Shown: positions 36,082 to 56,354 of the stretch, one piece after another
Layout: every line of letters begins with the position of its first letter
Numbering within the stretch: position 1 is the stretch's first letter
NCBI RefSeq assembly: GCF_003627965.1
Contig: NZ_RBWE01000001.1
Span: forward strand, 1 to 64,000
Source of the DNA: Desulfofundulus salinus
GTDB lineage: Bacteria > Bacillota > Desulfotomaculia > Desulfotomaculales > Desulfovirgulaceae
DNA length: 64,000 nt
Direction: 5' to 3'
Translations under genes and position numbers: made by a program
Notes under the pieces: generated by a model
Seen by the model: the letters and a program-made list of their open reading frames with translations, nothing else
Databases searched by the model: none
Told to the model about the DNA's origin: nothing

Positions 36082-37926
36082 CTACCGCACCACCACCCGG
36101 TACTCCCTGAGCCAGGTGTCAATTTGAATGAGGTAGGCCAGGAGCTGCGGCCCCCTCATCAGCTGGCCGTACCAGGGCATGTTCATGGCAGGCGCATCCA
36201 GCCGGGCAAACTGGCGCACGGCCTCAACGTCTATAAAGGGCAGCAGGGGGGAGGCGGGGTCGTCCAGAATATCCAGGAGCCACCGGCGGACGGCCTCAAA
36301 ATAGGCCGGGTGATGGGTCTTGGGGTAAGGGCTTTTGCGCCGCAGGAGCACCTCCTGTGGCAACACCCCCGCCAGCGCCCGGCGTAAGATACCTTTTTCC
36401 ACGCCCCCGCAGCTTTTCATCTCCCAGGGAATGTTCCAGGCGTATTCCACCAGACGGTGATCGCAAAAGGGGACCCGTACCTCCAGTCCAGTGGCCATAC
36501 TCATGCGGTCTTTACGGTCCAGGAGCGTAGCCATAAACCAGTTAAGATTCAGGTAAAACATTTCACGTATGCGTGCTTCACGGGGGTTTTCCCCCGGAAG
36601 GCGCGGTACTTCGGCCAGGGTATCCCGGTAGCGTTGCGCCACGTATTCCTCCGGGCGGATCATTGCCAGCAGTTCCGGTGACAACAAACGGGTCCGCTCT
36701 CCAGTAATAAGCGCCCAGGGGAAGGTTTGGGCGGCCAGGGCATCCTCCCTCCGGAACCAGGGATAGCCGCCGAAAATTTCGTCGGCGCACTCGCCGGACA
36801 GGGCTACGGTGGCTTCTTTTTTGACCTCCCGGCAGAAGAGCAGAAGGGAAGCGTCCACATCGGCCATACCGGGCAAATCCCGGGCTTGCACGGCAGCGCT
36901 TAGCGCCTCCACCAGCTGTGGCGCGTCGATCAATACGGTCCGGTGGTGGGTGCCCAGAAAATGAGACACCTGTCCTACCCACCGGGCATCGGAATCGGGC
37001 TCAAATTGATTGGGCCGGAAGTGACGGTCGTTATCCACATAGTCCACCGAAAAGGTACGAAGTTGCCCCGTACCATTTTTTTGGAAGGCAGCCGCGGCAA
37101 AGGCTGAAATGGCGCTGGAGTCGAGGCCGCCGGAAAGCAGAGTGCAGACGGGCACATCAGCCACCAGCTGCCGCCGGACCGCATCCTGCAAAAGCCAGCC
37201 TACCTTATCGGCAGTGGTGTCCAGGTCGTCCAGATGGGGATGGCTTTCCAGGGCCCAGTACCGGTAAATGTGCATACCCCGGTGGTCGTAAACCAGGCAG
37301 TGGCCGGGCCTCAGCTCCTTTACTCCCCGGAAAACGCCGTGTCCCGGGGTGCGTCCGGGACCCAAAACAAAGATTTCGGCCAGACCTTCAGCGTCCACCT
37401 CCGGTTGTACGCCCGGGTGGGCCAGGAGTGCCTTCAATTCTGAGCCAAAGATAAAAGCGCTACCCCTCTGGGTATAAAAAAGGGGTTTTACTCCCAGCCG
37501 GTCCCGGGCCATGAACAGGCTTTGCTCCTCTTCATCCCAGATGGCAAAGGCGAAAATACCGTTCAAGCGCGGCACGCATTCTTTGCCCCACTCCATAAAT
37601 GCCGTGAGCAGCACCTCTGTATCCGAGTGGCCCTGGAAACGATAACCCCGGGCTTCCAGCTCCTGGCGCAGTTCGGGGGTATTATATAGTTCTCCATTGT
37701 AGGTGATGATGTACCTTCGCTCCCCCCGCCGGCGGATCATGGGCTGCCCTCCGCCCGCGGGATCAACCACGATCAGGCGGCGGTGGGCCAGGGCGGCCCG
37801 GGGAGACAGCCACACCCCGGCGGCGTCGGGCCCGCGGCAGGCCAGGGTTGCCGCCATGTCCTCGAGTACGGTTTTTTGCCGGGTTAGATCCTCTTCCCAG
37901 TCTATCCAGCCGGTGATTCCGCACAT
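36082..37926 (-). CDS. asnB: Asparagine synthase (glutamine-hydrolysing)
   Basis: A 614-residue enzyme that makes asparagine from aspartate, glutamine and ATP. The N-terminal class II glutaminase domain starts MCGITGWID, with the nucleophile Cys2 and the RGPDAAGVW and LAHRRLIVVDP blocks. The synthetase domain has the PP-loop LLSGGLDSSAISA. The length equals that of B. subtilis AsnO. The frame runs on to 38097, but MCGI at 37926 is the only sensible start, since Cys must follow Met. It is head-on to replication and has a long leader with a possible attenuator. It may belong to the adjacent glycan island. Confidence 0.95.
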   Translation of the reverse strand: MCGITGWIDWEEDLTRQKTVLEDMAATLACRGPDAAGVWLSPRAALAHRRLIVVDPAGGGQPMIRRRGERRYIITYNGELYNTPELRQELEARGYRFQGHSDTEVLLTAFMEWGKECVPRLNGIFAFAIWDEEEQSLFMARDRLGVKPLFYTQRGSAFIFGSELKALLAHPGVQPEVDAEGLAEIFVLGPGRTPGHGVFRGVKELRPGHCLVYDHRGMHIYRYWALESHPHLDDLDTTADKVGWLLQDAVRRQLVADVPVCTLLSGGLDSSAISAFAAAAFQKNGTGQLRTFSVDYVDNDRHFRPNQFEPDSDARWVGQVSHFLGTHHRTVLIDAPQLVEALSAAVQARDLPGMADVDASLLLFCREVKKEATVALSGECADEIFGGYPWFRREDALAAQTFPWALITGERTRLLSPELLAMIRPEEYVAQRYRDTLAEVPRLPGENPREARIREMFYLNLNWFMATLLDRKDRMSMATGLEVRVPFCDHRLVEYAWNIPWEMKSCGGVEKGILRRALAGVLPQEVLLRRKSPYPKTHHPAYFEAVRRWLLDILDDPASPLLPFIDVEAVRQFARLDAPAMNMPWYGQLMRGPQLLAYLIQIDTWLREYRVVVR

Positions 37927-37980
37927 AATGACTTTCTCCCTCCCGTAAAACCCGTGCGGGCTGGCGTTTAAAAGCGGCCC

Positions 37981-38036
37981 GGTAAAAAGAAAGACGCCCC
38001 TCGAAGGCAGTGTTTTTCTGCGCTGCGGGGGGGCGC
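37981..38036 (-). terminator. Candidate attenuator hairpin in asnB leader
   Basis: On the minus strand, GGCGCCCC (38029-38036) can pair with GGGGCGTC (37993-38000), with an inner CTGC/GCAG stem. TTTCTTTTT follows at about 37983-37991. This terminator lies between the leader promoter and the asnB start, so it would block read-through unless prevented. No T-box consensus is present upstream. The ligand or factor is unknown. Confidence 0.55.
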
Positions 38037-38097
38037 CTTTGCCCGGGCCCGTAGTTGCTTTATGGCAACCCGTACGGCAGATTTTTTTCAGGTTCAT

Positions 38098-38126: not shown

Positions 38127-38214
38127 TTATCTAACCACCTGCGGGGTGGCAGTCAAGGCTGCCACTGTGAAACTAATGTTTTGAGCGGTGAACAGGTTGT
38201 ATCACCGGGCAAAT

Positions 38215-39780
38215 TCACTGCTCGTCTTTCCAGGCCACCAGGTTTGGTTTAGGGTCAAGGATAGACAGATATTGATCAATTAGTCCGTACTGCCCCAGTG
38301 GGTCCAGTTTTTTGTAGCGGTAGTACTTGGCCAGGCGGTCGGCCGGTTTCATCCAGCCCAGGTGTTTCACCCGTAAGGAGCTGGTGGCGCCTCTAAGCTC
38401 AGTGATGTTATGGGGAAATCGCCCGCAGTGCTGGGGGGTTTCCCGCCACTGGTAGGGGAAACCGGGAACATACCTGACCATGAAGGGTCTGTAGTAGTGG
38501 TGAGCCTTCCAGTATTCGTCCTCGCGGTAATGATCTTCATCCCACATGTCGTAGAGGCGGAAATAATAAACCTCAATTTCCGGGTTGACAGCCAGGGACC
38601 TTAGCTCCTTCACCGCGCGCTCTTCAAAAATTTCATCGGCGTCCAAAATTAAAATCCAGTCCGGCCTGGTTCCCACCGCCAGCTCCCAGAGCTGCTTGCG
38701 CAGGATGATTTCGTTATGAAAAGAGGGTTGCTTGTTGGAAACCAGGGTCAAGGGAATGTTTTGCAGGGTTTTTTTACACACTTCCACTGTATTATCCTCG
38801 CTGGCATCGTCTAAAATCACGGCACAATCGATGTACTGCGCCGCGTGCTTGAGAACTCTCTCAAGGTATCTCCCGGCTTCGTTTCTTACCAGCATGGCCA
38901 GGGTAATTTTACTTCCCCGTGTACCAGTCTCTTCATCAGCAGTTTGCAGCATGGCCGCACCGGTTGGAGTTTCCCTGCCGGACGGAAAATATTTCTCTTT
39001 ATAAGCCTTCAGGCCCGCAAGCTCGGACTCCCGGTAAATGTGGTAAGGCGGGTAGTAGGTGTCGGCATACAGTTCCAGCCCCAGGGCAGCCGCCCGGATA
39101 CAAAAGTGCCGGTCCTCCCCGATAAGGCCCAGGTTATATATTTCGCTGAAGGAGACCCCCAACAGGATTGCCCTGCGGCTGATCAGGGTACAGGCACCCA
39201 GGCCGCCTACTTTATAAACACCGGGCTTTTGCAACGTCTCCAGAAATTCTTTCACCCGCCGGGCGATCTCCTTTTCGTCGAGCATCTCGCCCCGCTGCAT
39301 GTGATACAGCCGGTAGTTGTCGGCTACCCAGACCTGAGGAAGGGGGATCATGTCCGGTTCCCACCTGGTCCAGTAGACCTCGGAAACGATATCCTTTCCC
39401 AACCCCACCAGGTGGACCAGCGTTTTCGGGTGCAGCACCAGGTCCGAATCAACCAGGAACAAGAAATCAAAGCCACTGTCCCGGGCCAGCTGGATAAAAC
39501 GGTTCTTATATCCGGCTACTTTCCAGATTAAATCTTCCCGCCAGTGGTGGGTGTGCTCGTCACAGTGGTAAGCGTGCCCTGCACCGTTGCCGGGGAAGAT
39601 ATGAACATTTTTTCTCCCGGCGGCAAACTCCCGCAGCAGGGTACTTTCCCTTTCGTTATCATCAATAAACGCGTATTCAACTTCTAGACCCGTGGTCTCC
39701 AGGTGCGAGAGGGACCACAGGAATTCTCTTAGTATGGACGGTTTCTGCCGGACCGGACTGGCGATGAGCACCCTTTGCAT
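38215..39780 (-). CDS. Two-domain glycosyltransferase
   Basis: A 521-residue protein with two glycosyltransferase-like domains. Residues 1-250 begin MQRVLIASPVRQKPSILREF and contain FLFLVDSDLVLHP (DxD) and GLIGEDRHFCIRAAALG, an Anp1/GT62-like arrangement. Residues 290-510 form a GT2 domain with TLAMLVRNEAGRYLERVLK and WILILDADEIFEE. It probably transfers two sugars or acts as a bifunctional enzyme; substrates are unknown. It is the last gene of a leftward four-gene operon. The ATG at 39780 overlaps the preceding gene by 104 bp. Confidence 0.82.
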   Translation of the reverse strand: MQRVLIASPVRQKPSILREFLWSLSHLETTGLEVEYAFIDDNERESTLLREFAAGRKNVHIFPGNGAGHAYHCDEHTHHWREDLIWKVAGYKNRFIQLARDSGFDFLFLVDSDLVLHPKTLVHLVGLGKDIVSEVYWTRWEPDMIPLPQVWVADNYRLYHMQRGEMLDEKEIARRVKEFLETLQKPGVYKVGGLGACTLISRRAILLGVSFSEIYNLGLIGEDRHFCIRAAALGLELYADTYYPPYHIYRESELAGLKAYKEKYFPSGRETPTGAAMLQTADEETGTRGSKITLAMLVRNEAGRYLERVLKHAAQYIDCAVILDDASEDNTVEVCKKTLQNIPLTLVSNKQPSFHNEIILRKQLWELAVGTRPDWILILDADEIFEERAVKELRSLAVNPEIEVYYFRLYDMWDEDHYREDEYWKAHHYYRPFMVRYVPGFPYQWRETPQHCGRFPHNITELRGATSSLRVKHLGWMKPADRLAKYYRYKKLDPLGQYGLIDQYLSILDPKPNLVAWKDEQ

Positions 39781-41296
39781 CCAGATCAATCCTTTCACCA
39801 AACGTCAGGCTATTCAGTAGAGCAGGTGACCAGGAAGGGCACAACCCCATGACCACCAGTTCCAGGGCGGATGAGGCCAGCCTGAGAAGTCCCTGGACGA
39901 AAGAAAACAACCCACACTCCAGATTCCGCTGCACCGCGCCGGCGTATAAAAGCATCCCGCTGGCGCAGGTAAGAAGGTAGTTGCCCAGCGGCTCTTGCCC
40001 GGGCCGGCTGGCCAGGTACTGTTCCATCATAAACTGGTATTCCCGGCAGGTCTCTATTAATTCCCTGCAGTTTCTGGAGTTAGACGGTTCGACCAGTATA
40101 AGCAGCGCCAGGACCATTGCCAGGGGTAACTCGCCGAGTTTGCACAGCTCTTTGTACAGGGCTTTTTTCCTGGATGGGGAAGCAAACCGGCTTAATGACT
40201 GCCATTGGAGCCTGCCCCGACCCCGCTGTTTTAAACCCAGTATTTGGGTCAGCGGGTACAACATGTGCGGTGCAAGGAGTAAGGCGTGAAAGTACTCATC
40301 TTCTGCTTCCCCATACTGGCCCAAAAGATTATAGCTGTCCCCAAGCAAGGCGTGGATGTGGTAAGGGGGGAGAATCTGGGCTCCCGCAATGAGGGCAAAA
40401 CGCAGTTCTTCGATGGCCGTGTCGCAGCGGCCGTCATACAGGGCCAAAAGTCCTTTGAGCAGGTGCAGGTCCGGGTCGGCGGGCAGCATGGATAGGGCCC
40501 CGTCTAGCAAAAATGTTAACCTGTCCCTTTGACCGGTTCTGAAAAGCCCCAGGCACAGCGTGAGCAACAAATCGCGGAAATAACCCTCGTTCCCGCGCAT
40601 GAAGACCAGGGCTTTCTCCAGCTGTTCAATGCCTTTTTTGATTTCCCCACACTGCAAGTGTTCGATGCCGAGGCTGTATAAAAGAAAAGGGTCATCAGGT
40701 TTATCATCCAGGGCCTTTTTAATTACGCAGATGTTACGCTGGTGCTTGTTTTTGAGCTGCAAGTGCCGGTCGAGATAGCCAAAGTGGTAGATTAACAGAT
40801 CCGAAAAGGCGAGGCCCCCTCCGGCGTTATGCTTTTTGATTGCCCCGGCTACCTGTTCATGGATGGCTCCGGCAAAACGATAGGCGGGTTTATTTCTAAA
40901 CAACCGCACCACCTGGTCCTCGGCCATCCCTTCACCGTACCCCAGGTAGCTGCGGATTTTCACGAAATACCCTTCTACATCCGGTGCGTCAAGGAGTCTG
41001 GCGAATTCTTCCAATTTAACTGGAGCCAGTATTTCATCAGCATCCAGGACCAGGATCCAGTCACCTGTGGCTTTACTAAGGGAGTAGTTTCTTGCCGCCG
41101 CAAAATCATCGCACCAGTGAAAGGTAAAAACCCTGGCTCCACTTTGGGCGGCCACTTCCTTCGTCCGGTCGGTAGAGCCCGTGTCGACCACGACGATTTC
41201 CCGCACCAGGTGCTGCACACTTTGGATGCAGGAGGCAATCCAGTGTTCTTCGTTTCTGGCAATCATGCACAGGCTCACCGGTAACCCGCTGCTCAT
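39677..41296 (-). CDS. GT2 glycosyltransferase with C-terminal TPR region
   Basis: A 539-residue protein. The N-terminal GT2 domain (about residues 1-220) has VSLCMIARNEEHWIASCI, VVVDTGSTDRTKEVA and WILVLDADEIL (DxD). A helical repeat region follows with TPR-like units such as PFLLYSLGIEHLQCGEIKKG. The ATG at 41296 has GGAGGT 7 nt upstream and overlaps the preceding stop by 4 bp. The last 34 codons overlap the next gene in another frame and have a low-complexity look, so the original stop may have been lost by a frameshift. Confidence 0.85.
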   Translation of the reverse strand: MSSGLPVSLCMIARNEEHWIASCIQSVQHLVREIVVVDTGSTDRTKEVAAQSGARVFTFHWCDDFAAARNYSLSKATGDWILVLDADEILAPVKLEEFARLLDAPDVEGYFVKIRSYLGYGEGMAEDQVVRLFRNKPAYRFAGAIHEQVAGAIKKHNAGGGLAFSDLLIYHFGYLDRHLQLKNKHQRNICVIKKALDDKPDDPFLLYSLGIEHLQCGEIKKGIEQLEKALVFMRGNEGYFRDLLLTLCLGLFRTGQRDRLTFLLDGALSMLPADPDLHLLKGLLALYDGRCDTAIEELRFALIAGAQILPPYHIHALLGDSYNLLGQYGEAEDEYFHALLLAPHMLYPLTQILGLKQRGRGRLQWQSLSRFASPSRKKALYKELCKLGELPLAMVLALLILVEPSNSRNCRELIETCREYQFMMEQYLASRPGQEPLGNYLLTCASGMLLYAGAVQRNLECGLFSFVQGLLRLASSALELVVMGLCPSWSPALLNSLTFGERIDLDAKGAHRQSGPAETVHTKRIPVVPLAPGDHGSRS

Positions 41297-43071
41297 GAAA
41301 ATAACCTCCTGGCCGGGCCGCATTTGTAGTCCAGCATGTGACGGGCGGCGCTGGCTTTTTCTTTAAGGTAGGCACACAGGGCCATGCATCCCCTGGGAGA
41401 CAGGCTGGTTAAAAGCTTTATTGTCTCTTGCGCCAGCCGGTGGTACCCCGATGAAACGCGAGCATTACCTGGTTCCAAAGGCCCGGGCCGGTAGCGCAAG
41501 CAGTTCTCCAGGATGGTCAGGGCCGTTTCAATGACTGCCGGCTCACGGTTTTTTTCCGGCCGGCCGCACCTGGAACTGTTGCCGAGCAGCGAAATCAGGT
41601 TCAATAACGTCCAGGCCGGGCTGCGCCCTTGTGGCCGCCGCCACATGGAAATGGTCCTTATTTTCGCCAGGCGGTAATCTTCTTTGAGCATCAGGGCAAC
41701 GATCTCGTCAACTGCCAGGGAGGGATCTATCTCACCACCGGCGTGCCGGATACGCTCCATAAGGGAAAGGGCATGCTCAAACCGGCCTGCATACACGCAA
41801 AACCGTGCCAGGTGCCGGGCATGGTCCTCAGCTGGACTGCCGGCACCTGGACAGGTTTCTTCAAAACACGCACAGGCCAGGTCCGGAAAACCGGCCTCGA
41901 AGAACAGGTCGGCCAGCACTACTACCTGTTGGGGGTGGTTGAGGTGCCCGGCGGCTTTGAGATGGTCGAAGGTACCCTGTGGTCCCTTTTCAGCCAGGTG
42001 GAGCAGGAACAGGTTGTAGAGCGGATAAAGATAGGCAGGGTTTAATGCCAGGGCCTTCTCGTAACAGTTTTTAGCTTCGTTGAACCTGGCCAGTTTTTCG
42101 TGGCAGTAGCCCAGATGATATAACGACAGGAAGCTCTCCGTGCCGTTGGTATGGCTAAACAGGGGGGGCGGTTGGCCGAGACGCAGGGCCTCCTTAAACC
42201 ATTTCAGGGCTATTTCATACTCCCCTTTTTCCTCGAACAGGATTCCTCCGTCGAAAAATAGATCGGTGTAAAAGGGATAGCGCTGGCTTTCTTCCATACA
42301 TATACAGATGGCCTCATCCAGGTTCCCCAGCGCCCTCAAGCAGGCAATCACTAAACGGATGGCCGGTACCCGGAACAGGATGTGCCCGTCCGTCAGCTGT
42401 TTTAAGGCTTCTTGAAGGTACGGGAGCGCCCGTTCAGCCTTGCCCAGGCCCAGCCATTCCACCCCCAGGTAATACTGTAAGAAGGGATTGGCGGGATCCG
42501 CAGCTAATGCCTGCCGCAGCAGGGCCAGATTGCGCCCCCGCTTGCGGTTGCGTTCTCTTTTGGATAAAGGCCTGTGCCAGATAACCGGGCCCTGTGCTGT
42601 ACCTACCGCTTCCGGGCGGCTAATCACCACCTGCTCATGGATGACCCCCTGGAAGCGGTAGCCGGCCTTGTTTCGAAACAGCCTGAGGACGAAAAACCGG
42701 TTGTAGTCACCGGGATTTTCAGTGGCCCGGTTATGGAGGGGCAGGAAAAAGGCCTCGTAACCGCTGTTATTGTTTATAAGCGAGTACAGGTCGCCCGGAC
42801 TGGTATCCAGTTCTTCATCGGCATCAAGGAACAGGATCCAATCGCTTTTAGCCCGGGCAAGGGCATAGTTGCGGGCGGCGCTGAAATCACCGTGCCACGG
42901 GTAACGGTAGACCTTGCCGGTGTAACGGCGGGCGATCTCTACGGTACGGTCCGTCGAACCGGTATCTACAATAACTATTTCATCGACCGCCCCCTTAACG
43001 CTATCCAGGCAGGCGGCCAGGTTTGCCTCCTCGTTGCGCACGATCATCGCTAAAGCTACAGTTGGTATCAT
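41293..43071 (-). CDS. GT2 glycosyltransferase with C-terminal TPR region
   Basis: A 592-residue protein with the same plan as its neighbours. The GT2 domain has ALAMIVRNEEANLAACLDSV, IVDTGSTDRTVEIA, WILFLDADEELD and a YRFQGVIHEQV acceptor-side motif. TPR-like repeats follow (NPFLQYYLGVEWLGLGKAER, FNEAKNCYEKALALNPAYLY). It resembles SunS-like and spore-surface glycosyltransferases that use TPRs to bind protein acceptors. The ATGA overlaps on both sides show tight translational coupling in the operon. Confidence 0.87.
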   Translation of the reverse strand: MIPTVALAMIVRNEEANLAACLDSVKGAVDEIVIVDTGSTDRTVEIARRYTGKVYRYPWHGDFSAARNYALARAKSDWILFLDADEELDTSPGDLYSLINNNSGYEAFFLPLHNRATENPGDYNRFFVLRLFRNKAGYRFQGVIHEQVVISRPEAVGTAQGPVIWHRPLSKRERNRKRGRNLALLRQALAADPANPFLQYYLGVEWLGLGKAERALPYLQEALKQLTDGHILFRVPAIRLVIACLRALGNLDEAICICMEESQRYPFYTDLFFDGGILFEEKGEYEIALKWFKEALRLGQPPPLFSHTNGTESFLSLYHLGYCHEKLARFNEAKNCYEKALALNPAYLYPLYNLFLLHLAEKGPQGTFDHLKAAGHLNHPQQVVVLADLFFEAGFPDLACACFEETCPGAGSPAEDHARHLARFCVYAGRFEHALSLMERIRHAGGEIDPSLAVDEIVALMLKEDYRLAKIRTISMWRRPQGRSPAWTLLNLISLLGNSSRCGRPEKNREPAVIETALTILENCLRYRPGPLEPGNARVSSGYHRLAQETIKLLTSLSPRGCMALCAYLKEKASAARHMLDYKCGPARRLFS

Positions 43072-45044
43072 ATTTCCTGGTTTGCCTCCTCAAAGAGCCT
43101 GCGCAGAACCGGTAGTTCGGGGTATTTATCAATGGCTTCCCGCAGGATTTCCCGGCGCATCTTTTCATAAAGCCTGATCAGGCTGACATAATACCGCGGT
43201 TCTGCTGGATCCAGCGCCAGGGCCCGTCTATAAAGTTCCCCGGCCTCGATGCAGGCGTTTTGACGCTCTTTAATTTCTGCAAGGGTAAAGAGTGTTTCGG
43301 GGCATTCCGGATTGGCCTCCAGGTAAAGACCCAGGTAATATTCTGCGGTCTTGAGGTGGCCGTACCGGTAGAACAGCTGGCCTACGGCCCGGGCGTTCTT
43401 GCTCAGGCACTCCCGGGATAAACCGTCTAACAGCGACTCGGCCCGTTCTTTCTCCCCCAGGTCAAGGGCACGCATTAGAATATCCAGGAGAAGGGACATT
43501 CCCTCATCGCCCAGGGTGACCCCGGGACCTCTGCGCCTGCCCGGGTAGTTTCGCAGCAGGCTTACCACCGCCCCCGTGTCCTGGGAAAGTCCGAGGGCAA
43601 ACAGTTCTTCCACCAGGGGCAGCACTTTACGGCGTTTTCCCTGGAACCAGAAGCACAAGATTTTATTTAATTTGGCCAGCGGGTAAAGCCGGTGGCCGGG
43701 GTCGAACCCCTCAAGGATGCGCAGGGCTTCCAGGTAACGCCTCAGCTGGATCAGGCAGATTGCTTTCCATAATAGAATTTCCGGTGCGGCTTCCTGCTGG
43801 TCCATGCCCCGCTCCAGGTACTCCAGGGCAAGCTTGTAGGCGGACTGGCGGAAAAGGATTTGCCCCATCAGGAGGTTGGCCTGGGGAGTACAGAATTCAC
43901 AAAGCTGTTCCAGGCATTTTTTTGCATAAACCGGATCTTCTTGTGGTTTTAAGAGGCGCGTGATGCTTTCCAGGGCGGGGGTGAAGTGGGGGTTATCCCG
44001 CAGGCTCAAGATGTAATAACGCATGGCTTCTTCGTGGTTCAAAAAAACTTCCGCCAGCTGTCCCATTTGGTAAAGGGAACGGAAACCCCGCGTCCCGCCG
44101 AAAGGTGCGTAGTGGGCCGGCTGTTCGGGCATGGACAGCGCCCTTTGGAAGAACTCGTACGCCCGCCCGTAATCTTTTTGTTCGTAGCTGATCAACCCGC
44201 CGTAGTAATAGAGGTCTGCGTAGTCAGGAAAAAGATCCAGGCCGAGCTGGACAATTTCTAAAGCCTGTTCGGGCTTGCGGGCGGCATGGTAGGCCAGGAC
44301 GATGTAACGCAGGAGTTTGGGCAGGTAGATGGTGTTCGGATCGATACCATTGGCCGCCCTGACCAGTTCTGCTGCTGCTTCATCAAACCTTTCCGCCCGG
44401 TACAGCTCCACACCGTAGTGATAGCGAAGGTGGCGGTTGTCCGGATTCCGGTTTAGCTCCTGGCTGAGCAGGGCCAGGTTCCGGTTCTTTTTATCCTTTG
44501 CCTTTATTTGCCGGTCCAGGTAGCCGTAATGCAGGATCACCAGGTCTTCGGCAATCTGGTACCTGGCCTGGCTGTTTCGTTCTAATATCACGTCTGCGAT
44601 CTGTTCGTGGATAGCCCCGCGAAACCGGTAGTCCTTTCGGTTTTTGAAAAGGCGGAAGACCAGGTCCGGGCAGGTTTCGCCCCATCCCTCGTTGCCTACA
44701 TAGTTAATTATCTTGATAAAATAACCTTCTACATTCTTTTCGTTGGCCAGCCTGCGCAGCACTTCCCTGCTTTCACCAGCCAGTTCTTCATCAGCATCTA
44801 AAAACAAAATCCAGTCTCCCGTGGCCAGTTCAAGTGAGGCATTGCGGGCGTCACTGAAATTGTCATTCCAGGGGAAAGAGTGGACCAGGGCACCAAATTC
44901 CCTGGCTATTTGACAAGTACCGTCGGTAGAGCCCGTATCTACAACAATTATTTCGTCCACGGTCCCGGCCACGCTTTGAAGGCAGCGGCGGATGTTTTGT
45001 TCTTCGTCCTTCACAATCATGCACAAGCTGATTCTGGACTCCAT
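43068..45044 (-). CDS. GT2 glycosyltransferase with C-terminal TPR region
   Basis: A 658-residue protein, first gene of the leftward operon. The N-terminal GT2 domain has ISLCMIVKDEEQNIRRCLQS, VVDTGSTDGTCQIA, WILFLDADEELAG and YRFRGAIHEQIAD. About 400 residues of TPR-like helices follow (HYGVELYRAERFDEAAAELV, YRRALALDPAEPRYYVSLI). The GT2+TPR architecture is typical of protein O-glycosyltransferases in Firmicutes. It diverges from the repeat-protein gene across a 131-bp gap. It is the longest of three related paralogues. Confidence 0.88.
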   Translation of the reverse strand: MESRISLCMIVKDEEQNIRRCLQSVAGTVDEIIVVDTGSTDGTCQIAREFGALVHSFPWNDNFSDARNASLELATGDWILFLDADEELAGESREVLRRLANEKNVEGYFIKIINYVGNEGWGETCPDLVFRLFKNRKDYRFRGAIHEQIADVILERNSQARYQIAEDLVILHYGYLDRQIKAKDKKNRNLALLSQELNRNPDNRHLRYHYGVELYRAERFDEAAAELVRAANGIDPNTIYLPKLLRYIVLAYHAARKPEQALEIVQLGLDLFPDYADLYYYGGLISYEQKDYGRAYEFFQRALSMPEQPAHYAPFGGTRGFRSLYQMGQLAEVFLNHEEAMRYYILSLRDNPHFTPALESITRLLKPQEDPVYAKKCLEQLCEFCTPQANLLMGQILFRQSAYKLALEYLERGMDQQEAAPEILLWKAICLIQLRRYLEALRILEGFDPGHRLYPLAKLNKILCFWFQGKRRKVLPLVEELFALGLSQDTGAVVSLLRNYPGRRRGPGVTLGDEGMSLLLDILMRALDLGEKERAESLLDGLSRECLSKNARAVGQLFYRYGHLKTAEYYLGLYLEANPECPETLFTLAEIKERQNACIEAGELYRRALALDPAEPRYYVSLIRLYEKMRREILREAIDKYPELPVLRRLFEEANQEI

Positions 45045-45175
45045 GATCTCTCATACCTCATTCAGTAAAATAGTTTTTTTGTTAATTTATGCACAGGGCC
45101 TGTAACCTTCCACAATAATGCAGAATATCCTAATAGCGGTAACGTCAAAATTTACCATACGAAGGAGGACAGCTA

Positions 45176-47486: not shown

Positions 47487-47650
47487 AACAGCTCTACCCT
47501 TGAGCCCGAAGGGCGCTGTGCGGTCCCTAAAAGTATGTTGCAGATGTCCAAATGCGTCAGTAAAGTATTTCCACAGGGGACTCGAGCACCATATTTTAGC
47601 CCTTTCATAGTATGTTCATAGCAGGAATCACTAAAGAAGGAGTGTCCAGG

Positions 47651-49023: not shown

Positions 49024-49045
49024 TGCCTGGAGTGGTTTACAACAG

Positions 49046-49951
49046 ATGCATGAAGCATCCGCAAGGGGATCAAAAGGTCTGGCTTCGGTAATTATTGCCT
49101 GCCGGGATGAACTGCCCTATCTGGAGCAAACCATCCGGTTTATGCTTACCGTGCCTTCCGGTTGCCCCATGGAGATCATTGTGGTGGATGACGGCTCCCG
49201 GGATGGGTGCGCCGACTTTCTCCGGCGGGGGGGCGAGCTGAGCCGGCGCGTGCACCTTGTCGAAGCCCCCGGTTTGGGGCCGGCCCGGGCCCGGAACCTG
49301 GGAGCTGCCCGGGCCAGGGGTGAGCTCCTGGTTTTTTGCGACGCCCACATCATTGTTCCCGGTGGCTGGCTGGGCGATCTGGCCCGGCCGGTGCTGGCCG
49401 GGCAGGCCCATGCCGTTTGCCCGGCCCTGGTGCATACGGAAAACCCGCACTTGATCATCTACGGCGGCACCTTAAGTAAGGATCTATCCTGGGTGGGGCT
49501 GACCTTTCCTCCCCGTTCCCTCTCACCCGTGCCCCTGGCCCCCGCCGGCTGCCTGGCCGTGGGTCGAGAGGCCTTTTTAGAGGTGGGAGGCTTTGAAGAG
49601 GGTTTAACCACCTGGGGATACGATGATGTAGAATTTTCGCTGAAGTTGTGGCTTTTTGGTTTTGCCGTGGCGGTAATGCCGAGGGTTAAAGTCGTGCACA
49701 TCAGCCGCCCTTTAAAACCCTACCAGAGGCCGGGAAAAAATCTCACCCGCAACCTTCTCCTGCTGGCAGCCCTGCACTTCAGCCCCCACCGCCTGGCCAG
49801 GGTGGCGTCAATGGCCGGGCGCTATCCTGGCTTTTCCGAATCGTGGGCCCGGGTGAGTACACCGGGCGTCTTAAAAAAACGGGATGAGTATTTTCGCCGC
49901 CGGGTTCGCGACGATGACTGGTTCATGCATACCTTCGGTATTCCGGTTTGA
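49046..49951 (+). CDS. GT2 family glycosyltransferase, paralogue of preceding gene
   Basis: A 301-residue enzyme from the ATG at 49046 (MHEASARGSKGLASVIIACR). It shares IIVVDDGSRDGCADFLRRGG, LLVFCDAHIIVPGGWLGDLA, GGFEEGLTTWGYDDVEFSLK and the ending RRRVRDDDWFMHTFGIPV with the upstream gene, so the two arose by tandem duplication. The frame extends to 48980, overlapping the previous gene, but the ATG reading is more natural. The acceptor is unknown. Confidence 0.83.
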   Translation: MHEASARGSKGLASVIIACRDELPYLEQTIRFMLTVPSGCPMEIIVVDDGSRDGCADFLRRGGELSRRVHLVEAPGLGPARARNLGAARARGELLVFCDAHIIVPGGWLGDLARPVLAGQAHAVCPALVHTENPHLIIYGGTLSKDLSWVGLTFPPRSLSPVPLAPAGCLAVGREAFLEVGGFEEGLTTWGYDDVEFSLKLWLFGFAVAVMPRVKVVHISRPLKPYQRPGKNLTRNLLLLAALHFSPHRLARVASMAGRYPGFSESWARVSTPGVLKKRDEYFRRRVRDDDWFMHTFGIPV

Positions 49952-50009
49952 GGGAGGCCCCTTTTCACCGGCGGGGCACAATAAGCATATCCTGGATGGA
50001 GGGTCACGT

Positions 50010-50672
50010 GTGGAGCATTTTGCCTTTATCATTTGCAGCCAGGACGATGCCCGTTACCGCCGCTGCCTCCAGTACCTGCAGGCGCTGGAACGCCCTGACG
50101 TGCAGATGGAGGTTCTGCGGGTGGCGTCCCGGCACAGTATTGCGGCTGCTTATAACCGGGCGATGGAAAGGAGCGCGGCTACCTATAAGGTTTACCTGCA
50201 CGACGATGTATTTATTTTAAACCGTCACTTTTGCCGGGACGTTCTGAAGATTTTTCGGGCAGACCCCTCCATCGGCCTTATAGGCATGTGCGGGTGCAAA
50301 AAGATACCGCCCGGGGGGATGTGGTGGGAGGGGAAAAGTTACGGCAAAGTTTCTCATGGGGACCCACCCCGGGTGCTCCTCTTCAACCAGCCCGCGGGCC
50401 TTTACGAGGTGGTGCAGGCGGTGGACGGCCTGCTCATGGTCACCCGCTACGATGTGCCCTGGCGGGAGGACATAATCGACGGTTTTCACTTTTACGACCT
50501 TTCCCAGTGCCTGGAATTTGCCCGCCGGGGATACCGGGTGGTGGTGCCCCGCCAGGAAGAACCCTGGTGCTATCACCGGAGTCCGGGCAGGATTGATGCG
50601 GAATATGAGCGGCTGCGGCAGGTTTTCTTAAGGGAATATGCTGAGGAATTATCTGGCAATCAGGTGGGGTAA
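50010..50672 (+). CDS. Glycosyltransferase-like family protein
   Basis: A 220-residue protein from the GTG at 50010, which has GGAGGG 6 nt upstream and gives VEHFAFIICSQDDARYRRCL. Recognisable features are ASRHSIAAAYNRAMERS, YLHDDVFIL (DD at the nucleotide-sugar site), VDGLLMVTRYDVPW and a FHFYDLSQCLEFARRGYRV block. It fits the short GT-A family often found in surface-polysaccharide clusters. The longer frame from 49884 overlaps the previous gene. The next gene starts 2 bp after its stop. Confidence 0.8.
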   Translation: MEHFAFIICSQDDARYRRCLQYLQALERPDVQMEVLRVASRHSIAAAYNRAMERSAATYKVYLHDDVFILNRHFCRDVLKIFRADPSIGLIGMCGCKKIPPGGMWWEGKSYGKVSHGDPPRVLLFNQPAGLYEVVQAVDGLLMVTRYDVPWREDIIDGFHFYDLSQCLEFARRGYRVVVPRQEEPWCYHRSPGRIDAEYERLRQVFLREYAEELSGNQVG

Positions 50673-50673
50673 G

Positions 50674-51795
50674 ATGGCCAGCGTGCTGTTTATTGACGGA
50701 GTTCTTCCCTCATTCCCCCATCCCGAACGGGGATGGCGCGTTTTGCGTATTTTAAAAGCTATTGCAGAAGCCGGGCACAGGGTGGTTTACCTGTTGCTCC
50801 AGGGAGAGCGGTACGAAATCTACCGGCCAGTTTTTGAGGAAGCCGGTATTGAGTTTATGGTGGAAAAAGGAGCCCGGATCTGCCGGCAGGGTCCGGTGAA
50901 GTGCCGGGTGGTGGGGCTGGACCAGCTGGTGCAGGAAGTCCCCTTTCACCTTGCCTGCATTCATTTTGCGGCCAACGCCCTCGCGTGCATTCCGGTAATC
51001 CGCCGCCATTCCCCCCGCACCAGGATTGCCGTGGATACGGTGGATCTCGCCCATATCCGGTTGTGGCGGGAGGCCCTGGTTACCGGGCGGCAGGAGAAGG
51101 TTGTAGAAGCCTACCGCCACTGGGAAATGGAAACGGCCGTTTTCCGGCAGGCCGATGCGGTTATTGCCGTTACCCCTTTGGAAGCCAAAATGATTTCCCG
51201 CCTGGCACCAGGTGTCAAAACAGTGGTCATTCCCGTTATTGCCGATGCCTGGCCACAAGTCAACCCCTTTTCCAGCCGCCAGGGCCTGCTTTACGTGGGA
51301 AACTTTTTTCACCCGCCCAATGCGGATGCCGTGTTTTACCTGGTCTATCACATCTGGCCCCATTTGCAAAAGGCCCTCCCCGGGGTGGACCTCTACATTG
51401 TGGGCCACAATCCCCCGCGAGAGATCCGGGATCGGGCAGCAGACGGAATCAAGGTGACTGGCTATGTGCCCTCTCTGGCTCCTTACTTTGAGCAGTGCCG
51501 CCTGATGGTGGCCCCCATCCGCTACGGGGCGGGGATAAAGACCAAGATAGTGGAGGCCATGGCCGCCGGCCTGCCGGTGGTGACCACCAGCATGGGTGCC
51601 GAGGGTATGGGGCTGCAGCCTGGTGAAAACGTGCTGGTGGCCGATGATCCCGTCTCCTTCAGCCGGGCGGTGGCCACCCTTTATCAAAACCAGTCCCTGT
51701 GGGAGCGCCTGTCTCAAAAAGGACGGGAGCATGTGCGCCGCTATTACAGTTTTCCCGTGGTGGCCCCGGCCATTTATAGTTTGCTGTCAAGCTGA
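50674..51795 (+). CDS. GT4 family glycosyltransferase
   Basis: A 373-residue GT-B enzyme. The N-terminal half starts MASVLFIDGVLPSFPHPERG. The C-terminal half holds LLYVGNFFHPPNADAVFYLV, VDLYIVGHNPP, IKVTGYVPSLAPYFEQCRLM and the nucleotide-sugar block APIRYGAGIKTKIVEAMAAG, then LPVVTTSMGAEGM. GGTGGGG precedes the ATG. It is the only clear GT-B enzyme of the island, probably adding or extending a sugar from a nucleotide donor. Confidence 0.87.
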   Translation: MASVLFIDGVLPSFPHPERGWRVLRILKAIAEAGHRVVYLLLQGERYEIYRPVFEEAGIEFMVEKGARICRQGPVKCRVVGLDQLVQEVPFHLACIHFAANALACIPVIRRHSPRTRIAVDTVDLAHIRLWREALVTGRQEKVVEAYRHWEMETAVFRQADAVIAVTPLEAKMISRLAPGVKTVVIPVIADAWPQVNPFSSRQGLLYVGNFFHPPNADAVFYLVYHIWPHLQKALPGVDLYIVGHNPPREIRDRAADGIKVTGYVPSLAPYFEQCRLMVAPIRYGAGIKTKIVEAMAAGLPVVTTSMGAEGMGLQPGENVLVADDPVSFSRAVATLYQNQSLWERLSQKGREHVRRYYSFPVVAPAIYSLLSS

Positions 51796-51881: not shown

Positions 51882-52685
51882 ATGCTGGTTTCCATCATCA
51901 TACCCGTACACAACCAGCTGGAACACATACAAAACTGCCTGCGGGCATTGTGGAAAAACACCAGCCGCACCTTCCCCTGGGAACTGATCATCGTGGACAA
52001 CAACTCGGACAGGGAAACGGCGACCTGGCTCCAAACACTGGGCAATGTGGTGCGCTTAATTTCCAACTCCACCAACCTGGGTTTTGTCCATGCCTGCAAT
52101 CAAGGGGCGGCGGCGAGCCGGGGCAAATACCTTCTCTTTTTAAACAGCGACACCCGGCCCCTCCCCGGCTGGCTGACAGCCCTGGTAGCTGCTTTGCAGG
52201 AAAACCCGCGGGCGGGGGCGGCGGGTGCCAGGCTGCTTTACCCCGACGGGAGGTTGCAGGAGGCCGGCGCCATCATCTGGAGGGACGGTACCGGCTGGAA
52301 CTACGGCCGGGGCGACGATCCCGCCCTGCCCAGGTACAATTACCCCCGCCCGGTGGATTACTGTTCCGGGGCCTGCCTGATGGTAAGGGCAGATCTCTTC
52401 CGTAGTCTGGGAGGTTTTGATCCCCGCTATGCTCCCATGTACTACGAGGATGCCGATCTTTGCTTTGGCCTGCGTCGGGCGGGATGGGCCGTGCTTTACG
52501 TACCCACGGCTGCGGTCATCCATTACGACGGCGGAACCGCCGCAGCCGGCAACGGGGGATGGCGGCGTTACATGGCCGTGAACAGGGAAAAATTCGTGGC
52601 CAAATGGAAAGATGTCCTGCGCTATCATTATCCACCTTCCCCGGAGAATGTGGAGCGGGCCTGCTGCCGTCCTCTGGACGCATAA
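51882..52685 (+). CDS. GT2 family glycosyltransferase
   Basis: A 267-residue GT-A enzyme. It has VSIIIPVHNQLEHIQNCLRA, LIIVDNNSDRETATWL, LGFVHACNQGAAASRGKYLL, FLNSDTRPLPGWL, GGFDPRYAPMYYEDADLCFG and an aromatic C terminus. The NSDT and YEDADLC motifs match rhamnosyl-type GT2 enzymes. ATG at 51882 follows a GAGTGA region. It lies just upstream of the GDP-mannose dehydratase-like gene. Confidence 0.86.
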   Translation: MLVSIIIPVHNQLEHIQNCLRALWKNTSRTFPWELIIVDNNSDRETATWLQTLGNVVRLISNSTNLGFVHACNQGAAASRGKYLLFLNSDTRPLPGWLTALVAALQENPRAGAAGARLLYPDGRLQEAGAIIWRDGTGWNYGRGDDPALPRYNYPRPVDYCSGACLMVRADLFRSLGGFDPRYAPMYYEDADLCFGLRRAGWAVLYVPTAAVIHYDGGTAAAGNGGWRRYMAVNREKFVAKWKDVLRYHYPPSPENVERACCRPLDA

Positions 52686-52692
52686 GGGGTGA

Positions 52693-53709
<1,017 letters not shown>

Positions 53710-53807: not shown

Positions 53808-54461
53808 ATGCTCACGGAAAAGATTGAGCGTTCCAAAGAAATCATTGCTGCCGCGCTCGAGCAGGCCAAAGGGGCCATGGTGACCTTTTCCGGCGGTAAG
53901 GATTCCCTGGTGCTGCTTCACCTGATCCGTACCGTTCAAGGCGGGAAGATAGCCTTACCCGTATTAAACATTGACACCGGGGTAAAGTTTCCGGAAATTT
54001 ACCGGTTTATTGATAAGATGCAGCGTCTCTGGGGGTTTAACCTGGTGCGGGAAAATAACATCGGGGCCATTCCCCCGGAAGAAATTGGCCGGGACCAGGT
54101 TCAATGCTGTTACCGGCTGAAGACCGTTCCCTTGAAACGGGCACTGGAGAAATACCGCGTCTCCCACCTTTTCACCGCCATCCGGCGGGATGAGCACCCG
54201 GCCCGGGCCGGCGAGGATTATATTTCCCCGCGGGAAGACCACATCCGCGTGCAGCCCCTGCTGCATTTCACCCGGGAGGATATCTGGGCCTACATCCGCC
54301 TGCACCACCTGCCCTACTGCTCCCTTTATGACCGGGGATATGTCAGCCTGGGCTGCAGGCCCTGCACCAGCCCGGCCGGTCCCGGTGAAGCGGAGCGCTC
54401 CGGGCGGGCTCCGGCCAAGGAAATAGCCATGCCCGATTTAAGGCAACTGGGGTATTTTTAA
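53808..54461 (+). CDS. PAPS-reductase-family (CysH/CysD-like) protein
   Basis: A 217-residue N-type ATP-pyrophosphatase-fold protein. The PP-loop SGGKDS is at residues 28-33. Cys100-Cys101 and Cys183-x2-Cys186 match the CC...CxxC set that binds a [4Fe-4S] cluster in assimilatory APS reductases. LFTAIRRDEHPAR and PYCSLYDRGYVSLGCRPCT also fit. AAGGAGG precedes the ATG. It could supply or consume activated sulfate. In a glycosylation island beside a sulfatase-fold gene it may relate to sulfated sugars, but this is inference. Confidence 0.8.
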   Translation: MLTEKIERSKEIIAAALEQAKGAMVTFSGGKDSLVLLHLIRTVQGGKIALPVLNIDTGVKFPEIYRFIDKMQRLWGFNLVRENNIGAIPPEEIGRDQVQCCYRLKTVPLKRALEKYRVSHLFTAIRRDEHPARAGEDYISPREDHIRVQPLLHFTREDIWAYIRLHHLPYCSLYDRGYVSLGCRPCTSPAGPGEAERSGRAPAKEIAMPDLRQLGYF

Positions 54462-54476
54462 GCGGGAGGAGTCTGC

Positions 54477-55673
54477 ATGATCTTTTCCATACTGATGATT
54501 ACCATTGATACCCTGCGGGCGGATCACCTGGGGTGCTACGGTTATCAACGGGAAACCTCGCCCCACCTGGATGCGCTGGCCCGGGAAGCCATTCTTTTCC
54601 GCCGGGCTTACTCCCCATGCTCTTATACTTTACCGGTTCATGCCTCAATTATGACGGGGAAATATGTGCCCCATCATTCAGTCGGTTACAGGCAGGGGGA
54701 CGGAAAAATGGACCCCGACCGGGAAGTGACCCTGGCCGAAATCCTCCTGAGCCTGGGCTGGTCCACTGCGGCCTTTGTCAGCTGCGCCGTTCTGGACGCC
54801 AGCCGGGGGCTTTCCCAGGGCTTTGTGCTGTACGACGACGAGATGACCAGGGGAGAAGAAAACAGACCTCATGAGCTGGTGCGGGACGGCCCCCTTACCA
54901 CGGCGCGGGCACTGGCATGGTTAAAAGACAACACCGGCAAACCGTTTTTTGTCTGGATACACTATTTTGATGTTCACGGTCCGTATATACAACCTGCTCC
55001 CTTTAACACTTTTTTCAGGCCGGAGGATTACGGGAAAAGACCCCTCTTGTTGCCGGTGGTGAATGAAGGGGAGGCCGGGGGAATTCCCCGTTACCAGCTG
55101 CTGGCCGATGATTCCGATGGTGTGGCAAAACACCAGCATGATGTCCGTTTTTACCTGGCTCGATATGACTGCGGTATCCGGTACCAGGACCATATTGTGG
55201 GTGATTTATTCCAGACATTAAAGGAAATGGGCCTCTGGGATGAACTGATGATCATTGTCACTGCCGATCACGGCGAGGCCCTGGGGGAAAACGGCGTCTA
55301 CTTTTACCACGGTCTCACTTTGACCCCCGACCAGATCCATGTGCCCCTGATCACCAAAATGCCCCGTTCCATTGGTCCGGCCGGCGTGCAGGTTGACGTG
55401 CCGGTGAGTACGGTGGATATTATGCCCACGGTCCTGGAATTATTGGGATTTGACTGTAGCCGCATGGCTTTAGACGGGTTGCCGCTGCAGTTTGCCCTGA
55501 CAAGGCCGGATCTTTTAGCACAAAGGGCCGTGCATAGCGATCTGAAATGTCAAGGAGCGCTTATCTGCGGAAAGGAGCTGCACCTCTGGCCCCGCACCTC
55601 CACCATCTGCTCGCCTGGCTATCTATATAACCCGTCCCTGGTTTTTGAAGAGACAAAAATTTACCTGTTCTGA
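54477..55673 (+). CDS. Sulfatase/alkaline-phosphatase superfamily protein with Thr at nucleophile position
   Basis: A 398-residue protein of the sulfatase fold. It has SILMITIDTLRADHLGCYGY (metal Asp), ADHGEALGENG (metal Asp and His) and SVDIMPTVLE-type blocks (here STVDIMPTVLELLGF). At the C/S-x-P-x-R active site it has Thr51-Leu-Pro-Val-His, so it cannot form formylglycine from Cys or Ser there. Thr is the nucleophile in related phosphotransferases and phosphodiesterases, so a phospho- rather than sulfo-substrate is plausible. No signal peptide is visible. GGGAGGAG precedes the ATG. Confidence 0.82.
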   Translation: MIFSILMITIDTLRADHLGCYGYQRETSPHLDALAREAILFRRAYSPCSYTLPVHASIMTGKYVPHHSVGYRQGDGKMDPDREVTLAEILLSLGWSTAAFVSCAVLDASRGLSQGFVLYDDEMTRGEENRPHELVRDGPLTTARALAWLKDNTGKPFFVWIHYFDVHGPYIQPAPFNTFFRPEDYGKRPLLLPVVNEGEAGGIPRYQLLADDSDGVAKHQHDVRFYLARYDCGIRYQDHIVGDLFQTLKEMGLWDELMIIVTADHGEALGENGVYFYHGLTLTPDQIHVPLITKMPRSIGPAGVQVDVPVSTVDIMPTVLELLGFDCSRMALDGLPLQFALTRPDLLAQRAVHSDLKCQGALICGKELHLWPRTSTICSPGYLYNPSLVFEETKIYLF

Positions 55674-55700
55674 ATTCGAACTGGAAGGGAGTATCAACCG

Positions 55701-56351
55701 ATGAACAATTCCGTGGTAAGCGGTGAAAGGGCGGTTCCCGGGTTTAGTGACCCGATTACCATGGCCGAACACCTGGCCCGCTACGAGTTTGCCCTGGCTT
55801 TCGTGGCCGGCCGGGAGGTGCTGGATGCGGCCTGCGGGGTGGGTTACGGCAGCCGGATGATGGCTGAACGGGCGAAGAAGGTGGTGGGGGTGGATATTGA
55901 TCAGGAGTGCCTTGAGTATGCCCGGGAAAATTACACCCATCCCCGGGTTGTTTACCAGCAGGGGGATGTCTGCGCCCTCCCTCTCCCCGGCGGGAGCTTT
56001 GACGTGGTGGTTTCCTTTGAAACCATTGAACACGTTGCCGATGGCGAGGCCTGCGTCCGGGAAGCATGGCGGGTGCTGAGGCCGGGAGGCCTCTACCTGG
56101 TTTCCACGCCCAACCGGCTGCTCATTTCACCCGGCCGGGGACCCCAGGACCCGCCGGCCAACAGCTTCCACGTGCGGGAGTACACCCTGGAGGAATTTCA
56201 AGAACTGGTAGGGAGCTATTTCCAGAACCTGCAACTTTTCCGGCAGAATCTCGAAGAAGAGGGGCGGGGCCGGAACCCGGCCGTAAAACCCCTTTTGCCC
56301 GGGGAGGGCGCCTGGTTTTACGTTATTGTCGGCGTCAAGGGGGCTGAATAA
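55701..56351 (+). CDS. Class I SAM-dependent methyltransferase
   Basis: A 216-residue methyltransferase. Motif I is VLDAACGVGYGSRMMAERA near residues 40-58. VVGVDIDQECLEYAR and FDVVVSFETIEHVADGEACV are post-I and motif II regions, followed by the VLRPGGLYLVSTPNR block. It probably methylates a sugar or small molecule and is the last gene of the rightward island. GGAGTATCAACCG precedes the ATG. A candidate structured RNA begins directly after the stop. Confidence 0.86.
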   Translation: MNNSVVSGERAVPGFSDPITMAEHLARYEFALAFVAGREVLDAACGVGYGSRMMAERAKKVVGVDIDQECLEYARENYTHPRVVYQQGDVCALPLPGGSFDVVVSFETIEHVADGEACVREAWRVLRPGGLYLVSTPNRLLISPGRGPQDPPANSFHVREYTLEEFQELVGSYFQNLQLFRQNLEEEGRGRNPAVKPLLPGEGAWFYVIVGVKGAE

Positions 56352-56354
56352 GGC

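Follow-up and report, generated by a model that had tools for sequence, protein, structure and literature searches.

The locus studied here raises the question of what a bacterium could build with ten glycosyltransferases encoded around a pair of DUF6385 (PF19912) proteins. It lies between a tRNA-Glu and a tRNA-Gly gene in the first 64,000 nucleotides of contig NZ_RBWE01000001.1 of Desulfofundulus salinus (this whole stretch is called the window; the source genome comprises 2.89 Mb in 10 contigs). The initial annotation had seen in it a surface or spore-surface glycoprotein system, which is likely right in kind in view of the co-occurrence of DUF6385 with SpoIVA, the promoter-like elements and the lack of an export signal. 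With moderate confidence, we propose that two back-to-back gene sets build, anchor and sugar-coat a hair-like fibre of the spore surface, an undescribed glycosylated system resembling the endospore appendages (ENA). The new point is the hook-shaft-head pair of DUF6385 proteins, which our analysis would place as an undescribed ENA-like variant.

The DUF6385 pair and its divergent neighbours

The island genes form two operons that diverge from a single 131-bp gap. The features at the centre of the locus are listed below (GT2, glycosyltransferase family 2; TPR, tetratricopeptide repeat).

45045..45175, no strand: divergent intergenic region with promoter-like elements (AAC-N17-AATATCCTA at 45104-45132)
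45176..46048, plus strand: D6385a, 290 aa, putative fibre subunit (PF19912, 80.6 bits)
46140..46625, plus strand: D6385b, 161 aa, hookless, putative anchor (PF19912, 89 bits)
43068..45044, minus strand: GTt658, core GT2 enzyme with TPR repeats (PF00535 and TPR), conserved neighbour of D6385a
41293..43071, minus strand: GTt592, core GT2 enzyme with TPR repeats
39677..41323, minus strand: GTt548, core GT2 enzyme with TPR repeats
38215..39801, minus strand: GTb528, core GT2 enzyme without TPR repeats, start codon uncertain

The curated cut-off of PF19912 is 26.8 bits. The overlap of GTt548 and GTb528 makes the 3' end of the former or the start of the latter uncertain.

D6385a is composed of a hook (residues 1-9), four repeats of 34 residues and a C-terminal DUF6385 head (residues 208-290); its hook sequence is MPNYKIF and it contains no cysteine. 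The repeats correspond to a 102-bp tandem repeat in the gene (45280-45711; 4.2 copies, 95% matches) with a score of 780, versus only 50-52 for the other four tandem arrays of the window. The closest named match of D6385a (99%) comes from Desulfofundulus thermosubterraneus DSM 16057. The N-terminus MPN[YF]K[IV]FQD is present in 10 of 10 aligned relatives, followed by a Thr/Pro-rich shaft and the C-terminal head.

A wider set of 60 loci was picked with the hidden Markov model of the head alone (one hand-picked stretch per genome, several of them stopping at contig ends). It covers 41 of the 56 DUF6385-positive genomes of a phylum sample (left out: G000, G003, G018, G030, G040, G405, G044, G081, G084, G087, G094, G150, G190, G220 and G382) and 19 of the 20 of a Sporomusa-class sample (left out: G446); genomes are designated by G numbers and locus stretches by L numbers. 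Among the 105 DUF6385 open reading frames (ORFs) detected, 41 have a hook-like start, as defined by a hand-made motif that misses some likely hook proteins (e.g. in L192 and L196) and the ORFs truncated at the start. A hook ORF is paired with a hookless one in 35 loci, a single hook ORF in four and one hook with two hookless ORFs in two. The distance from hook to head extends from 35 to 1048 residues in the 41 hook proteins, and the median Ser+Thr content is 28% in this region versus 20% in the heads. The peak hydropathy over 19 residues within the first 60 residues reaches at most 1.61, so that the hook proteins contain no clear signal peptide or membrane helix. Extreme shaft lengths occur in proteins of 1172 aa (L182, 5373-8888, minus strand) and 835 aa (L202, 5326-7830, minus strand), which share this N-terminus and end in one DUF6385 head.

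The partner D6385b, modelled with a predicted local distance difference test (pLDDT) value of 81, has an N-terminal hydrophobic helix (residues 11-45; hydropathy 2.91) followed by the DUF6385 head. A hydrophobic stretch is found in 6 of the 8 rows of the alignment of hookless partners, A2 (1.93-2.91, the other two being at about 0.6); in the 60-locus set, only three of 64 hookless ORFs have one. The domain CBM96 was matched in three of seven hookless proteins scanned, two of them over the cut-off. Core glycosyltransferase matches lie near DUF6385 in 40 of the 60 loci and any island glycosyltransferase in 44; none of 10 control stretches, which together span about 125 kb, contains the core TPR type.

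We infer mother-cell expression, spore localisation, polymerisation, anchoring and glycosylation according to the following scheme. During sporulation, both operons would be transcribed in the mother cell, in opposite directions from a single promoter region. D6385a would be made in the cytoplasm and would polymerise, each subunit docking its MPNYKIF hook onto the DUF6385 head of the one before it, with the Thr/Pro-rich repeats forming a shaft whose length would follow the number of repeats. As D6385b has the head and no hook, it would stand only at the base of the fibre, which its membrane helix (in some other taxa, a CBM96 domain) would tether to the spore. Sugars would be added to the fibre protein in the cytoplasm by the four glycosyltransferases of the divergent operon, of which three contain TPR repeats, and the downstream glycosyltransferases, the Gmd, the methyltransferase, the amidotransferase and the sulfatase-fold enzyme would make or modify a lineage-specific glycan. 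The likeness of the TPR-containing GT2 enzymes to the peptide glycosyltransferase SunS, together with the core glycosyltransferases in 40 of 60 loci, suggests that the fibre is glycosylated directly, inside the mother cell.

Distribution, promoter-like elements and fold of the head

DUF6385 was detected in 18 of 41 relatives, a count that includes the own genome. It is present in 56 of the 398 genomes that make up the phylum sample (two of them, G044 and G190, below the Pfam cut-off), in 20 of 150 genomes of the Sporomusa-class sample and in none of 14 control genomes. The named matches (47 loci) include Desulfofundulus, Desulforamulus, Desulfosporosinus, Pelotomaculum, Carboxydocella, Syntrophomonas and Sporomusa; D. 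thermosubterraneus DSM 16057 and D. thermobenzoicus DSM 14055 are among the strains with the locus. SpoIVA (PF09547) is present in 341 of the 398 and in 47 of the 150 genomes, and in all the DUF6385-positive ones (56 of 56 and 20 of 20, that is 76 of 76 together); the chance of such an overlap, calculated without correction for kinship, is 8.5e-5 in the phylum and 2.7e-12 in the Sporomusa class.

This co-occurrence bears on the view that the island has nothing to do with spores and is an ordinary locus for a vegetative capsule or a cell-surface glycoprotein. Exopolysaccharide loci commonly contain Gmd, GT2 and GT4 enzymes and asnB-type amidotransferases; enzymes of these types are present here, and a protein target would need no polymerase or flippase. 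Such a locus is nevertheless very unlikely, given the 76 of 76 genomes with SpoIVA, the hook proteins without signal peptide and the lack of any recognised export gene among the island ORFs scanned.

More tentatively than for the locus itself, we suggest as one joint proposal that DUF6385 represents a further, undescribed class of endospore appendages, made of hook-shaft-head fibres with a hookless anchor and their own TPR-glycosyltransferases. This class would extend over Desulfotomaculum-type bacteria, Desulfosporosinus, Syntrophomonas-type bacteria and the two-membraned Sporomusa, with a shaft length set by the number of repeats and glycan genes exchanged between lineages. In our literature search (bioRxiv preprints lay outside its scope, as did most subscription journals), DUF6385 was named in no paper, no appendages were described for sulfate-reducing or acetogenic spore-formers (Desulfotomaculum and Sporomusa were queried), and the combination of Desulfofundulus, spore and glycosyltransferase returned nothing related. 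The family makes the covering of the spores of these sulfate-reducing and acetogenic spore-formers testable, and it leads to the questions of whether such fibres are an old trait of Bacillota common to the diderm Sporomusa, and of how a cytoplasmic fibre acquires sugars.

The divergent gap contains elements conserved between genera. From 45 loci with a hook start, 24 were retained (divergent ORF start matching SLC[ML] within 400 nt; near copies G003 and G005 dropped), then 21 (near copies G001, L114 and L105 dropped). On the D6385a side, AAC-N17-[CA]ATANNNT was found in 14 of 21 loci (shuffle mean 0.34, maximum 3) and AC-N16-18-[CA]ATANNNT in 17 (mean 3.0); the AAC-N17 form and the choice of A or C at -10 were fixed after the sequences were seen. 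On the glycosyltransferase side, CATANNNT was found in 21 of 21 loci (mean 5.5) and CATANNNTA, the textbook form, in 13 (mean 1.9). Upstream of purA, used as control (13 loci; the start was not found in a fourteenth), the four patterns gave 0, 0, 1 and 1 of 13. The first base of the -10 is A on the D6385a side, and no clear -35 is visible on the glycosyltransferase side. The promoter sequences are related, and the shuffles therefore overstate the strength of these counts. The mother-cell sigma factors of C. difficile are described as sharing a common -10 and differing by the -35, with ATA for E and AC for K (PMC3789822), and sigma-K is thought likely for ENA genes (PMC12921279); these papers, like the others below, are cited from excerpts of their text.

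The head of D6385b was predicted with pLDDT values mostly above 90. With Foldseek, Ena2A, Ena3A, Ena1C and Ena1B are among its first 11 matches, behind PirA (E-values of the ENA entries from 2.8e-5 to 2.8e-4), and VIA-align gives Z scores of 10.7 for Ena1B, 9.9 for Ena2A, 9.8 for Ena3A and 9.0 for Ena1C. No F-ENA (DUF4183) chain is among the matches listed, which is uninformative in either direction. In its predicted structure, this head is thus ENA-like in fold; kinship with the ENA proteins is not claimed. The DUF4183 domain (PF13799) was matched in neither D6385a nor D6385b at E-values up to 1 and passes its cut-off in none of the 41 relatives. The domain Enas (PF13157) was matched neither in the two proteins nor in the own genome, and occurs in 1 of 199 genomes of the phylum sample. 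The filing of the DUF6385 pair as F-ENA or S/L-ENA was rejected, because the two domains that define these groups were searched for and not found in it.

Several results weigh against a fibre of this kind. In the fold comparison, YomS, XepA and PirA obtain Z scores of 10.9-11.4 with the D6385b head, equal to or above those of ENA, the jelly-roll being a common fold. The comparison of 47 DUF6385 heads with one Enas protein by hhalign gave a probability of 1.8%, and profile searches of the PDB returned no ENA chain, either with alignment A1 (one chance match) or with A3 (best match, a beta-galactosidase with E 0.0067). The predicted structure of D6385a, with a pLDDT of 39.6, was not used. Its hook departs from the F-ENA motif, with N at position 3 and no P at position 6. 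Concerning the promoters, the D6385a side shows no enrichment of the canonical CATANNNTA (5 of 21 versus a mean of 2.4, with 21 of 300 shuffles reaching 5), and the AC-N16-18 element is found in just 7 of 21 loci on the glycosyltransferase side. A search with the D6385a pattern recovered the D6385a site exactly and six further places with one or two mismatches versus five control matches, hence no regulon. Among the 60 loci, 13 encode one hookless DUF6385 protein only and six encode two hookless ones, some of these counts reflecting ORFs cut by contig ends or missed by the hook motif, and 16 contain no related glycosyltransferase in the stretch read. SpoIVA was matched in 29 of the 31 genomes examined behind the 47 named loci, the two misses being metagenome-assembled genomes. 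Finally, many SpoIVA genomes have no DUF6385; the same-genus G002 and G004 are both without it, and since G002 has SpoIVA, DUF6385 is dispensable.

The same SpoIVA and promoter-element evidence would fit a glycosylated layer of the spore (coat, crust or nap) that contains no head-to-tail fibre and in which the DUF6385 proteins would form a brush or lattice in or on the coat. The C-terminal domains of BclA in the fold list (Z 8.2) are in agreement with such a layer, and the polymerisation of D6385a is only deduced. We regard this layer as improbable, for it leaves unexplained the strictly conserved N-terminus, the pairing of hook and hookless proteins in 35 of 60 loci and the range of shaft lengths. 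The fold lists also contain the lambda tail tip, XepA and YomS, which with the shaft-and-head layout would recall a phage-tail-like fibre (remnant prophage or injection device). We give almost no weight to this origin: no phage structural family was matched among the island ORFs scanned, conserved glycosyltransferases adjoin the DUF6385 gene, and DUF6385 is confined to SpoIVA genomes in the samples. The proposed sugar-coated spore fibre is the explanation that we prefer.

The tRNA site and the putative decoration half

The remaining features of the island and of its borders are the following (PAPS, 3'-phosphoadenosine-5'-phosphosulfate; SAM, S-adenosylmethionine).

35843-35918: tRNA-Lys, adjoining tRNA-Glu
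35920-35995: tRNA-Glu
36082..37926, minus strand: asnB, asparagine synthase/amidotransferase (TIGR01536 over cut-off, 517 bits)
46647..47486, plus strand: GT279, GT2 enzyme
47612..48058, plus strand: carboxypeptidase-regulatory-like protein of 148 aa with a Pro-rich tail, third putative structural protein (PF13620, 37.5 bits)
48133..49023, plus strand: GT296, GT2 enzyme
48980..49951, plus strand: GT323, GT2 enzyme
49884..50672, plus strand: GT262, PF13712 glycosyltransferase, true start probably further in
50638..51795, plus strand: GT4-type (group 1) glycosyltransferase, 385 aa (PF13692, 102 bits)
51882..52685, plus strand: GT267, GT2 enzyme
52699..53709, plus strand: Gmd, GDP-mannose 4,6-dehydratase (TIGR01472, 459.7 versus a 415-bit cut-off)
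53808..54461, plus strand: PP-loop protein, PAPS-reductase family (PF01507, 156 bits, over the Pfam cut-off)
54477..55673, plus strand: sulfatase-fold (alkaline phosphatase superfamily) protein (PF00884, 149.8 bits)
55701..56351, plus strand: SAM-dependent methyltransferase (PF08241, 95.2 bits)
56551-56625: tRNA-Gly

The gene content given by the initial annotation is found in place between the two tRNA genes. Domain matches confirm the ten glycosyltransferases, the Gmd-like, PAPS-reductase-like and sulfatase-fold proteins, the methyltransferase and the asparagine synthase, and its three putative structural proteins are the DUF6385 pair and the carboxypeptidase-regulatory-like protein. Pfam scans class nine of the glycosyltransferases as GT2-type and one as group-1 type, with TPR repeats in three. 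The minus-strand block comprises asnB and the four core glycosyltransferases; the plus-strand block comprises the two DUF6385 genes and the carboxypeptidase-regulatory-like protein, six glycosyltransferases, then Gmd, the PP-loop, the sulfatase-fold and the methyltransferase genes. Both strands are used, as had been remarked; this is the layout of two blocks diverging from 45045-45175.

From its sequence, asnB probably starts at 37926 (MCGITG...), corrected from 38097. The PP-loop protein remains below the NCBIfam cut-offs for PAPS/APS reductases (best 135.7 versus 154 bits), and the sulfatase-fold protein reaches no NCBIfam cut-off among the matches listed. Classical sulfatases contain the motif C/S-x-P-x-R. 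Because CSYTLPVHAS stands at this position in the sulfatase-fold protein (54477-55673, plus strand), the latter may be a phospho-transferase or hydrolase instead of a sulfatase.

In G001, G003 and G005, of the same genus, the interval from tRNA-Glu to tRNA-Gly contains all 18 genes with their order unchanged, and nearly all recur in G008; the gene set is therefore not a chance cluster. An insert of about 2.5 kb interrupts the methyltransferase gene of G005 (L036/L092). The G008 locus is divided between two contigs, one with the right part as far as tRNA-Gly and one with purA-tRNA-asnB, where asnB is followed by about 5 kb that differ from the island. Between the same tRNAs, G007 contains all four core glycosyltransferase genes, the DUF6385 pair and a single accessory glycosyltransferase. 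After tRNA-Gly, CBS and/or SCIFF-maturase genes are found in G002, G003, G007 and G008, and were unmatched in the 15 kb read in G001 and the 4 kb read in G005. In the window, a SCIFF peptide maturase is located just right of tRNA-Gly, as in several relatives (57678-59033, plus strand; TIGR03974, 600.6 versus 425 bits); the start of the window (1-251, minus strand) falls within a 16S rRNA gene.

The divergent core, with minus-strand glycosyltransferases opposite D6385a, is found in 13 of the 18 DUF6385-positive relatives, own genome included (G000, G001, G003, G005, G006, G007, G008, G009, G015, G016, G030, G032 and G040). Among them, G006 is without GTt548, the second DUF6385 gene of G016 is on another contig and that of G040 lies beyond the glycosyltransferases, on the far side. 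The core is rearranged in G018, G034 and G036, cut by a contig end in G019 and fragmented in G011. The scattering in relatives on which the annotated system was to be judged thus concerns the accessory genes and not the core.

In G009, G015 and G018, tRNA-Glu and tRNA-Gly are at most 200 bp or one extra tRNA-Lys apart and the DUF6385 genes lie elsewhere, from which it follows that the locus entered the tRNA cluster. In G031, 2.5 kb separate the two tRNAs; the interval of G012 and G006 was not readable across. In G002 (L079), asnB alone is matched between the tRNAs, in two pieces (49 and 371 of 671 residues); to judge from these matches, it looks like a broken asnB at a site without fibre genes. 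The proposed acquisition as a unit is partly correct: it stands as far as entry into the cluster is concerned, and the argument from the tRNA borders is weak. The insertion is present at the cluster in three genera of the family, its GC content (0.569) is near that of the flanks (0.555 and 0.560), no integrase or transposase family was matched among 20 ORFs scanned, and no direct repeat of at least 11 bp is shared between 35901-36120 and 56341-56700. A recent mobile unit at the tRNA was rejected, neither an integrase nor an att-like direct repeat being found. The island was inserted into a tRNA cluster long ago, and parts of it have since been exchanged in the family.

This exchange is visible in the congener G004, which keeps asnB and the right (decoration) half, about 19 kb of other genes replacing the left half. 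The replacement (L081, 4962-13053 and 15023-18877) encodes a GvpL/GvpF protein (219 bits), a GvpH-like protein just under the cut-off, a CDC48-type AAA protein, an AAA protein read as GvpN, a coiled-coil protein of 766 aa and a beta-propeller protein. A right half kept without DUF6385 is what would be expected if this half, from GT262 to the methyltransferase, were a separate spore or cell polysaccharide locus that does not act on the products of the fibre genes. Most other relatives have the core without the right half, and Gmd-like matches occur in just 6 of the 60 loci. We consider this separation unlikely, if less so than the coat layer, since in G000, G001, G003, G005 and G008 the right half comes after D6385b in the same orientation, separated by short gaps. 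In G004 it lies beside gas-vesicle genes and may still serve the spore, because gas vacuoles accompany sporulation in Desulfotomaculum acetoxidans, according to the excerpted text of PMC3035247.

Comparison with known systems

SunS is a transferase that acts directly on a polypeptide in the cytoplasm. The TPR-containing GT2 proteins match the profile of this peptide S-glycosyltransferase (TIGR04195) with 93.5 and 110.2 bits, far below its cut-off of 350 bits, and D6385a has no cysteine to accept an S-linked sugar.

The exosporium glycoproteins of BclA type with SgtA offer, in the excerpts of PMC7157674, another case of a repeat-bearing spore protein with dedicated glycosyltransferases nearby or in the genome. 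The DUF6385 proteins differ from them by the lack of GXY collagen repeats and by another head family.

The S/L-ENA (Enas, PF13157, formerly DUF3992) resemble the present system in the predicted fold of the D6385b head, to which other jelly-roll proteins score as high. A common logic of anchoring is also apparent in the part of PMC12921279 cited, ExsL being composed of a CotZ domain and a C-terminal DUF3992 domain, to be compared with the putative anchor D6385b. They differ by the lack of a profile match and by the CC motif that ENA subunits display in their N-terminal connector (PMC11952670), whereas D6385a is cysteine-free.

The closest comparison is that with F-ENA, described in excerpts of PMC11952670, where solved spore appendage structures come from Bacillus, Paenibacillus and one clostridial family. 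In the F-ENA fibre, each subunit is joined to the head of the preceding one through its N-terminal hook, the necks vary in length, and attachment to the spore involves a protein that combines this head with a different N-terminal part (F-Anchor). In one clostridial F-ENA, densities on five serines and three threonines are likely O-glycans (PMC11952670). The differences are a head of DUF6385 instead of DUF4183 (PF13799), a repeat-rich shaft located entirely N-terminal to the head, the large dedicated set of glycosylation genes that adjoins the DUF6385 genes, and the beads-on-string fibre of C3 trimers that characterises F-ENA on the spore, a trimer and fibre being putative for D6385a. With regard to the hook motif M-P-psi-psi-polar-P-psi (PMC11952670), the residues M1, P2, polar K5 and aromatic F7 of MPNYKIF fit, and N3 and I6 do not. 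As in F-ENA, D6385a is a small cytosolic protein without export signal, with a hook that begins with M-P and has an aromatic residue at position 7, a neck of variable length and a beta-rich C-terminal head, and D6385b is a partner with the same head and another N-terminus, like F-Anchor.

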